This document shows, in pieces, positions 3,283 to 5,806 of a DNA stretch of 29,470 nt. The position numbers and the translations under genes were made by a program. Under the pieces are notes generated by a model. It was not told the origin of the DNA, made no database searches, and saw nothing but the letters and a program-made list of their open reading frames with translations. Every line of letters begins with the position of its first letter. The first letter of the stretch is position 1. The DNA is from a virus: positions 1-29,470 of the IMG/VR virus record IMGVR_UViG_3300009474_000006. The stretch is one strand, 5' to 3'.

Positions 3283-3666
3283 TTAGTAAAGGATTATTAT
3301 CTCTACTTGCACGGGTGCGGTGGGCGTGGGACTGAATTTACCCGTGATAGTCACCGACCCATTGTTTGTAAATCCCCATGCCAGAGGGGCAGATAAGGCA
3401 GTCGTGGAAGTTAAGAGCCTTCTCACTCGCACCTCCCTCGCCTTTTTTGAAGTGGGGGCGATTACTAAGGGCGTATTGTCGGTGAGCTCGACCACTTTAA
3501 TGGTGCAATCGGTATTATCCTCATCAGTCAACCCATTGCGTAGCGCTCTGATTGTTATTTCGGCAAACTGCGCTTGAAATTGTATAAAATCTTGAAGCTG
3601 TTTCCCCGCCTCAGTCGATAAGGCGCGGGCAGTCTCAAAGATCCGACTGATTGTAATTTTAGCCAT
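3283..3666 (-). CDS. small virion-like protein next to terminase
   Basis: 127 residues, start ATG at 3666 overlapping the end of the terminase gene by 8 nt. The first 50 residues are helical (ISRIFETARALSTEAGKQLQ), and the rest is beta-rich and ends in QVEIIILY. The beta half (TPLVIAPTSKKAREVRVRRLL...WGFTNNGSVTITGKF) resembles the small beta-sandwich virion proteins elsewhere in this genome. Function is unknown. The coupling to terminase suggests a head or portal-vertex role. Confidence 0.6.
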   Translation of the reverse strand: MAKITISRIFETARALSTEAGKQLQDFIQFQAQFAEITIRALRNGLTDEDNTDCTIKVVELTDNTPLVIAPTSKKAREVRVRRLLTSTTALSAPLAWGFTNNGSVTITGKFSPTPTAPVQVEIIILY

Positions 3667-5071
3667 TGCGGAATTTCCCAAAGCGAGCGGGACCAGGGTA
3701 TTTATTTACCGGTGCCAGGTTTTCCAGTGTGACGGTTTCCGTTTCGGCTTTATTATTATAAATAAAAATCCTTTCGTCATTCCCAAACCTATCTCGAGCA
3801 TTTGGATTCTCACGGCTTTGCACCCTATTAGCGTACATCAGAGCGGCTATTGCATCACAGTGCCCAATCTCTGGAAGGCGCTCAAAATCGGTCCGATTCT
3901 TATTGAAAACTCCAGCCCTACAGGACTGAATGAGGAATTTGCAGCGTGGGTGGATCCAAATTTGGTCCATTTCAAACAGGTTTGACATGCTCTGGACTGT
4001 AGCCAGCCAATCAGACTTGGGGGGAGTAGCGAATTCAGCCCCTAACTCAAATAGGTCAATCAGCACCTGGCCCGCTACGTCAGCATGTTTCGCAAACCAG
4101 TTGAATTCCAGTGTGTCGAGCTCCTTCTTGATATTCACGCTCGGGGTATTGGCTGGAAACCAGCGTTCATCCCAAATCAGAAGGCGGTTATGGAGGTAAT
4201 CGTAGGTATGGACGAGAGCTACAGTCATGTCTCTAGTCCCGCCCCAGTCTGCAGTCAGTTGGATATGGCATTTTGCGGGTAGTCTAAAATCTTTCACGTG
4301 TATCTTGGGGTCAAATCCAGGTATGACCACTTTCGACATGACCCTGATTATCTGCGCTAGGTATTCCCGCTTGAACGCATCCGTGTGTGTCCCCCCGCAT
4401 CGCCTTGCAGCTTCCAGGATCATTTCAGGGCTGATACTTGGGGAATCATAGACTGTGTATTGGAACAAAGTCCCGAGCATGTCAGCTTCAGGTAGGACCC
4501 TGGTATGCAGTGGGTGATCAGGTTCTTCACTGGGGGAGCTAACGAATATCTCCATACCCTGAGACCTGAGAAGTTGAGGCCCCATCACGCTATCGACCCC
4601 ATAATTGAAGTCGTCAGCGGTCACAAACCCGCATTCTTCATAAATGATCAGGGAGGCATTCCCCCCCCGATTCCCGTCAACGTAAGCCCTTTCCAATGCT
4701 CCCAGGCGAAGGCTTGAACCGTTGAACAGATTGTATCTATACTCAGTCTTAGACCGCCTTAGCAAGCCCTCAGGCGCGTCAGCGAGAATTATGCTGAGGT
4801 TGTCATTCACAAGGTCCTGGCACTGCTTGAATGTCGGGGCAATCACTCGAGCAATCTTTTTGGGATTCTTAAGCAGGTATTCCAGAGCAAATACGCAAGC
4901 CCAGAAGGTTTTCCCAATTTGACGTGACGAGAGAATGCAGACTTTTCGAGAATCTGCATTCTGCCTTACTGTGGCGCTGATTCTTCTTTGTAAGGTATCT
5001 AACTTATAAGCTAGTTCCCCCCTACTCCACAACGCATTTTTTAAATCTCGCTCTGTTATTTGTTCTTGCAT
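3659..5071 (-). CDS. terL: terminase large subunit
   Basis: 470 residues. The N-terminal ATPase has an atypical Walker A, SSRQIGKT (residues 48-55), Walker B LIIYEE (141-146) with the catalytic Glu, and the coupling motif VSSPS (about 177-181). The C-terminal RNase H-like nuclease has LTADWGG with the first metal-binding Asp at about 275 and a late acidic site, GHCDAIAAL. It packages DNA into the procapsid through the portal. The ATG at 5071 has no clear Shine-Dalgarno site. Length and motif order are normal for the family. Immediately upstream lie a 53-residue ORF and the structured RNA. Confidence 0.95.
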   Translation of the reverse strand: MQEQITERDLKNALWSRGELAYKLDTLQRRISATVRQNADSRKVCILSSRQIGKTFWACVFALEYLLKNPKKIARVIAPTFKQCQDLVNDNLSIILADAPEGLLRRSKTEYRYNLFNGSSLRLGALERAYVDGNRGGNASLIIYEECGFVTADDFNYGVDSVMGPQLLRSQGMEIFVSSPSEEPDHPLHTRVLPEADMLGTLFQYTVYDSPSISPEMILEAARRCGGTHTDAFKREYLAQIIRVMSKVVIPGFDPKIHVKDFRLPAKCHIQLTADWGGTRDMTVALVHTYDYLHNRLLIWDERWFPANTPSVNIKKELDTLEFNWFAKHADVAGQVLIDLFELGAEFATPPKSDWLATVQSMSNLFEMDQIWIHPRCKFLIQSCRAGVFNKNRTDFERLPEIGHCDAIAALMYANRVQSRENPNARDRFGNDERIFIYNNKAETETVTLENLAPVNKYPGPARFGKFRNG

Positions 5072-5120: not shown

Positions 5121-5282
5121 TCAGCGAGTATTCTTAAAGCACGCAATAATATTCTTCCTATCGAGCGCTGTCCCCTCCAGAACTAGGCAGTCAAACAGCT
5201 TATCTTGACACATCCACTTGGACCTATCGTCTACATTGCCAGCGCACCATGCTGATACCAGCATTAAAGCTTCATCAAACAT
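5121..5282 (-). CDS. small ORF upstream of terminase, possibly the 3' part of a split gene
   Basis: A 53-residue frame (MFDEALMLVSAWCAGN..., ending IIACFKNTR) with ordinary amino-acid composition, directly after the structured RNA. AAAGG directly precedes the ATG at 5282, which is too close for a normal ribosome site. An upstream stop at 5294-5292 closes the frame. It looks coding, but the start is unconvincing. It may be the tail of a gene whose first codons (ATG at 5681, with GAGG 6 nt upstream) are on the other side of the RNA. No family is recognised. Confidence 0.45.
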   Translation of the reverse strand: MFDEALMLVSAWCAGNVDDRSKWMCQDKLFDCLVLEGTALDRKNIIACFKNTR

Positions 5283-5294
5283 CCTTTCGGGTCA

Positions 5295-5672
5295 GCAAAG
5301 CGGCGGAAACCTTCCCCTTCAGGGGGAGGAGGAAGCCGCCACTCGTTTTTAAAATAGGGTGCCGGTCTTTCCCGGCTGTCAGTCTCGTGAGAGACGGTCT
5401 TGGGTTACCCCAAGATACTCTGGTTTCCCAGGTAAATGTCACCTTGCCGATGTTATAGAGAGGTTTACATGTAAGAAGCACTGGCCTAATCCCCTTAATC
5501 CTGTTTAACCACTTACCGCAGAGCTTGGAACTGGTGAAGCATCCCAAGGTGCCTATACATTCTCTCCTAACGTAGATCAGAGGATTACTCCCCATCTCTC
5601 GGGCGGGACAACATGAGACTTGCTTGGAACGACTCCTTACAAGCCTGCCCCTTTAGGGGCGGGTAGTTGACA
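5295..5672 (-). ncRNA. HEARO/omega-RNA-like structured RNA without an IscB gene
   Basis: A 600-bp stretch without a convincing gene holds a chain of strong hairpins. On the minus strand from the 5' end they are: 5663-5644 (8 bp with one G-U pair, 4-nt loop), a possible one at 5548-5524, 5414-5399 (6 bp, 4-nt loop), 5395-5382 (5 bp), 5376-5361 (5 bp) and a two-part stem at 5340-5302. Its opening (CAACTACCCGCCCC), the AAGACCGTCTCTCACGAGAC segment and the final GC-rich bipartite hairpin resemble, from memory, HEARO RNA. HEARO is the guide RNA scaffold (omega RNA) of IscB elements of the IS200/IS605 group. There such an RNA lies 5' of the iscB gene; here the next genes are a 53-residue ORF and terminase. 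Orientation matches the surrounding operon. A group I intron or another large structured RNA is the alternative. Confidence 0.6.
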
Positions 5673-5689
5673 CAGAGACATAGCAAGCC

Positions 5690-5806
5690 TCACTTAATTC
5701 TGCCTGTAATTACTCTAATAGCATAACAAAGACCCCAGAGTGCTAACACAATCGCACTCCAAGATACAATCACATATGCTATGGCTTCGATTCGGTCTGT
5801 GGACAT
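5690..5806 (-). CDS. 38-residue single-pass membrane protein
   Basis: The ATG at 5806 has GGGGGAG 4 nt upstream, a strong site. The protein begins MSTDRIEAIAYVIVSWSA and has one hydrophobic helix at about residues 8-32, followed by a basic tail ending RVITGRIK. It is too small for a usual ORF caller. It lies in the tiny-gene cluster between the 13-residue peptide ORF (11 nt upstream) and the structured RNA. A holin-like or other membrane role is possible but not shown. Confidence 0.6.
   Translation of the reverse strand: MSTDRIEAIAYVIVSWSAIVLALWGLCYAIRVITGRIK

Follow-up and report, generated by a model that had tools for sequence, protein, structure and literature searches.

Introduction

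Omega RNAs are the ancestors of the CRISPR guide RNAs, and IscB is the ancestor of Cas9. Solo omega-RNA loci, lying away from iscB, are said to have been described by Altae-Tran in 2021 in Ktedonobacter racemifer; the copy presented here resembles them in its distance from any iscB, but it is carried by a phage, and the ends and target of the element can be defined. Insertion of HEARO elements beside ATGA or GTGA was reportedly described in 2009, and an NTGR-type target motif is probably not new in itself. HEARO nucleases are known from viral fragments (over 16% of fragments; PMC9755519), as are IS200/IS605 derivatives reduced to their ends (PMC7290912).

The window analysed in this study is a stretch of 29,470 nucleotides, which constitutes the whole of one virus record (G000). 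The locus examined here shares with the Rfam family HEARO (RF02033) a full-length match in sequence and structure, well above the gathering score, but differs from the usual setting of this family in that no iscB lies downstream; further hairpins and a right end are found there instead. With the PATE/MITE elements of IS200/IS605 (PMC7290912) it has in common hairpin ends, the lack of genes and a presumed mobility through TnpA supplied in trans, whereas a complete guide RNA is placed between its ends. We are fairly confident that the locus is, in identity and origin, a non-autonomous IscB insertion element (ISC, IS200/IS605-like), composed of a HEARO/omega RNA left end, leftover leader hairpins of iscB and a right-end (RE) hairpin, with neither iscB nor tnpA. 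The literature searched, outside which lay the founding HEARO (2009) and IscB (2016/2021) papers, contains no report of a phage-borne non-autonomous element with a complete omega RNA.

Results and Discussion

A HEARO RNA without a nuclease gene in a phage packaging operon

A cmscan of the whole window with 4227 Rfam families gave a single match above the gathering threshold, HEARO, at 5671-5432 of the minus strand (119.9 bits against a gathering score of 83, E=1.5e-24), which covers the entire model (1-211 of 211) and is the only HEARO copy in the record. The folding energy of this stretch alone is ordinary (z=-0.25), and the evidence for HEARO is therefore the covariance model. That the locus belongs to another RNA family, or is a chance cluster of hairpins, is refuted by this sole, full-length match and retains practically no probability. 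The covariance-model search proposed in the initial annotation thus upheld its recognition of a HEARO/omega-RNA element.

The same annotation had taken the interval 5295-5672 as the RNA. HEARO does lie inside it, but is only 240 nt long, and the remainder consists of other parts of the element; besides HEARO, the interval takes in four short hairpins and the right-end hairpin, and is thus nearly an entire mobile element, not an RNA gene alone. The CAACTACCCGCCCC stem with which it opens belongs to the 5' end of HEARO; what had been described as a run of short perfect stems corresponds to the four hairpins (about 5431-5361) and the “bipartite final hairpin” to the right-end hairpin (5343-5299). 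The only longer frame inside (5595-5275, 106 aa) has no Pfam or PHROG match. The features of the locus, all on the minus strand, are as follows.

5690..5806, minus: ORF of 38 aa, transmembrane-like, just upstream of the element (relatives in L004, L005, L007 and L146)
5672..5691, minus: left flank, predicted guide/protospacer, 5'-GAGGCTTGCTATGTCTCTGT-3' (in other genomes, similarity between copies begins precisely at GTCA)
5432..5671, minus: HEARO/omega RNA scaffold, full length (RF02033 match)
5420..5431, minus: leader hairpin H1, CTGG-GAAA-CCAG (stem-changed counterpart before iscB in L016/L014, also in phage L012)
5398..5415, minus: leader hairpin H2 around GGTAAC, a GNRA-type loop (covariation in 7 elements)
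5382..5395, minus: hairpin H3, GTCTC-TCAC-GAGAC (fold; by eye, a hairpin of different sequence at the same place in L012)
5361..5376, minus: hairpin H4, GCCGG-GAAAGA-CCGGC (fold; L012 counterpart by eye)
5299..5343, minus: RE imperfect hairpin, outer stem GTGGCGG/CCGCC, inner CCCCTGAAGGGG (DNA fold)
5276..5671, minus: whole element with the favoured right end, ...GGATGTTTG/ATGA (ORF reconstruction and homologue)
5272..5275, minus: TAM-like ATGA of the right flank, adjoining the target (NTGR after the RE in the curated set; reported IsrB TAMs)
5121..5282, minus: small ORF upstream of the terminase, interrupted near its 5' end (joined flanks align with the L140-L143 protein)
3659..5071, minus: terminase large subunit of the packaging operon (PF03237 and phrog_2)

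The element, roughly 390 bp in size, has the subterminal imperfect hairpins typical of IS200/IS605 (the left-end hairpin CCCGCCCCTAAAGGGGC and the RE hairpin at 5343-5299), and hairpins of the same plan as the latter terminate most of the other HEARO elements examined. Its whole length (5671-5276) folds with z=-2.49, and the four-hairpin region (5431-5345) reaches -33.9 kcal/mol (z=-4.93; 0 of 200 shuffles equally stable). For H2, aligned across 7 elements, 5 of the 5 counted pairs change on both sides, with 97% of cells paired (0/500 shuffles), and for H1, in a smaller set of elements, 3 pairs are changed on both sides and 100% of cells are paired, both hairpins having been chosen manually, with the loops as anchors of the manual alignment.

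A domain search of the 29.5-kb record revealed neither an RRXRR/IscB domain nor a Y1 transposase, and tblastn downstream of the HEARO gave no IscB match. The RRXRR result can be trusted as a negative, for this query does recover IscB in other genomes. The RNA accordingly lacks the usual, not obligatory, position just 5' of an HNH/IscB ORF, and the locus is not a complete IscB/OMEGA system, which has iscB in cis; the absence of a Y1 transposase in cis is as expected for a non-autonomous element. The HEARO strand also carries the genes for terminase (phrog_2), portal and scaffold, which suggests that the RNA would be read through together with the packaging genes. We thus confirm the first proposal, namely that this is a HEARO/omega RNA which lies within the packaging operon of a phage and has no nuclease gene in its neighbourhood.

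These observations bear on a further explanation, namely that the copy is a dead, passively carried MITE/PATE, whose ends and RNA serve only as transposition substrates and whose omega RNA never guides in the phage. No enzyme is encoded in cis, and ends-only IS200/IS605 derivatives (PATEs) moved by TnpA in trans are known (PMC7290912). The two contigs that carry the element (the window and L008) show 100% identity across the 5.4 kb that were compared, and hence bear no sign of selection in either direction. On the other hand, the HEARO is complete (1-211), and compensatory changes have preserved the leader hairpins across elements, which suggests that the RNA has been kept functional in the family. 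A passive copy is, in our estimate, a serious possibility at somewhat less than even chance, and the insertion could be recent but dead.

Lying in sense orientation some 200 nt ahead of the terminase start, the RNA would also be well placed for a local regulator of the packaging operon, e.g. a terminase leader controlled by IscB or by ribosomes; moreover, the RE of some family members carries a Shine-Dalgarno (SD) sequence next to the downstream start. We nevertheless regard such a role as improbable, as relatives of the phage manage without the element and solo copies elsewhere precede unrelated genes (MurG-, SSB-, Cas1-, RelA- and GpsA-like, by eye).

In the same part of the window, a 13-codon micro-ORF, M[A/K/P]KKPKPKP[RK]PKC*, occurs in two copies (6132-6091 and 5858-5817, both minus), one of them with a good SD. 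It was also found in related phages (L003, L004, L005, L007 and L147), which suggests, from sequence comparison, a conserved tiny basic peptide.

Termini, target and interrupted gene

In multicopy genomes, the left flanks of the elements diverge exactly before GTCA, and the left end is therefore at 5671. This agrees with the earlier placement of the guide just 5' of the scaffold, from 5672 upward. The left flank GAGGCTTGCTATGTCTCTGT contains GAGG, 6 nt and the ATG of the interrupted small gene; it has one exact match in the window and elsewhere only matches with 3 mismatches.

There are two candidates for the right end, ...GGATGTTTG/ATGA (5276) and ...GCTTTG/CTGA (5296). Elements of the IS200/IS605 type characteristically insert beside a fixed short target and do not duplicate it. 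The RE hairpin is followed by ATGA, GTGA, ATGG or GTGG in 47 curated elements, and the TAMs published for IsrB are NTGA, NTG and NTGG (PMC9581776), which makes both candidates plausible targets. The spacer after the RE hairpin is unusually long for 5276, and 5296 fits the usual distance from hairpin to target better. Joining the flanks at 5276 yields ATG TCT CTG T/AT GAA..., the beginning of a 54-codon ORF (MSLYEALMLVSAWC...) with GAGG 6 nt upstream. This joined ORF aligns with a small protein (DLYRKIEIVSLWC...) encoded upstream of the terminase in related phages (L140-L143), scoring 46 (0/1000 shuffles) compared with 35 (29/1000) for the ORF in its present form, and its N-terminus gains an LY match to this homologue; against the proteins of L144 and L146 the two forms score equally. 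On the strength of the reconstruction and the homologue, the right end is probably 5276, and 5296 is kept as a less favoured alternative. The insertion point lies 10 nt inside the small gene, not exactly at its start codon, and the interrupted ORF could now begin at an ATG in the RE tail (MFDEALMLVSAWC...).

The reconstructed target followed by ATGA fits the published IsrB TAMs; cutting beside the TAM is only predicted. An uninterrupted allele would read ...GCTTGCTATGTCTCTGT directly before ATGAAGC (end 5276) or CTGACCC (end 5296). The search for alleles without the insertion, which the initial annotation had called for, brought none to light: a protein search of IMG/VR found no empty site, and exact DNA searches of the same database with the left flank and with the flank/intact target plus TAM returned only the identical contig, or nothing. 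Thirteen relatives identified by their terminase lack the HEARO and also have no close homology at the insertion site; direct alignment with such relatives was abandoned as a route to the empty site, the region upstream of the terminase being too variable.

Related elements in phages and bacteria

Pattern searches with conserved HEARO DNA yielded 19 bacterial loci and 5 viral contigs, among which was L008, identical to the window. HEARO elements of the same build, with no iscB beside them, are present on two other phage contigs and in many bacterial MAGs. On phage contig L012, HEARO is followed as in the window by four hairpins, an RE and ATGA; its HEARO core is nearly identical to that of the window, and the hairpin stems are changed yet still pair. 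In phage L009 (G002) the HEARO and RE are followed by ATGG. Neither phage record contained a match to RRXRR or Y1_Tnp.

An iscB-bearing element from a Rhabdochlamydiaceae MAG (L016) is like the phage copy in HEARO type, in H1 and H2 and in an RE followed by ATGA, but encodes a 427-aa IscB where the phage copy has about 100 nt with H3 and H4. Because the same two leader hairpins lie between HEARO and an intact iscB in L016, the simplest reading of the comparison is that the phage copy arose from an iscB element by internal deletion, and is a non-autonomous derivative of the MITE/PATE type in which the leader, the RNA and both ends have been kept.

A Selenomonadaceae MAG (G007; L033 and related loci) contains at least 20 HEARO matches and at least 3 intact IscB frames. 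Most of these matches have no iscB beside them, solo copies being multicopy in MAGs, and no Y1 transposase was detected in this MAG. It shows that IscB partners can coexist with solo HEARO copies.

In a Thermotogales MAG (L046, G004:C581), a solo HEARO element is placed exactly at the start codon of a cas1-like gene (MKRMLYLFTSGKLLRMNNTLVFE..., by eye). A second class of HEARO elements (L089, L125, L156, L161, L162 and L164) has an RE ending in ...TTCTTGCC; the right flank in this class appears to be of an NWAAA type, similar to the TAM of OrufIscB (NTAAA).

Insertion between Shine-Dalgarno sequences and start codons

The boundaries of the 47 elements were set by eye, with the RE hairpin as the landmark, because automatic detection of right ends missed many loci, including known ones. 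A start codon was scored when the joined site opened an ORF that ran for at least 60 codons and was preceded, no more than 20 codons upstream, by an in-frame stop. By this measure, the NTGR opens an ORF in 25 of the 45 curated copies with both flanks, a set that comes from few genomes, is dominated by G007, G004 and G124 and was assembled after the pattern had been noticed. The control values are 6.7% for NTGR sites at large (n=4145, p=3e-18) and 15.9% for intergenic ones (n=395, p=1.3e-9). For copies without iscB the proportion is 18/26. At least 5 SD consensus bases occur in 19/45 left flanks, against 10% and 17% in the controls. A later Chlamydiota set, with hand-set boundaries, gave start codons in 5/11 elements versus 4.9% (p=1e-4) and SD in 5/11 versus 6%. 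In HEARO elements with another right end (...TTCTTGC), SD was found in 0/10, compared with 24/56 (p=0.007).

A survey of IMG/VR with a 16-base pattern was set aside, most of the loci it brought up lacking a left or right end that could be recognised and being, in all probability, matches by chance. Only 11 of these viral loci were usable in an automatic test, in which gene starts showed no significant excess (1/11, p=0.52) and SD a borderline one (4/11, p=0.02).

Unexpectedly, then, NTGR-type HEARO elements are located between SD and start codon much more frequently than chance would predict. Besides any true preference for the target, survivorship may contribute to this excess. The literature searched, which excluded the founding HEARO and IscB papers, holds no report of such a preference. 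In G490:C108 and G490:C130 (L152 and L171) and in L009, the HEARO element ends in a TAAGGAG- or GGAGG-like SD a few bases before the downstream start, as if resupplying the displaced ribosome-binding site.

A possible homing mechanism

The element presumably entered the phage by single-strand transposition, with TnpA supplied in trans, and inserted beside an NTGA, 10 nt into the small gene upstream of the terminase. Read-through from the late phage operon would then produce an RNA that begins with the ribosome-binding region of the interrupted gene as its guide. By analogy with IscB, the guide would be GAGGCTTGCTATGTCTCTGT (5691-5672), just 5' of the scaffold, and the TAM would lie 3' of the target. 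As there is no iscB in cis, a guide against the element's own empty site would be usable only if IscB acts in trans. Target and TAM stand side by side only in the uninterrupted site, from which we infer that the RNA with IscB from the host or a co-infecting element would attack the empty allele (guide match plus ATGA) and spare the occupied one, and carrier phages would convert or out-compete non-carriers. We hold the identification of the element with much more confidence than this homing step, which we consider tentative and somewhat short of an even chance.

A broader proposal, at present speculative and rather unlikely, is that NTGR-target HEARO/IscB elements are specialised to insertion between SD and start codon, that host mRNA gives them both promoter and guide, that some right ends resupply the ribosome-binding site, and that solo phage copies are minimal RNA homing elements borrowing the IscB of the host.

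To conclude, since this phage copy has no nuclease and its target can be read, it offers a way of testing whether a guide RNA can by itself spread as a homing element on a borrowed nuclease. A preference for start codons, in turn, would explain how a guide RNA that depends on an outside promoter is transcribed without the destruction of genes.
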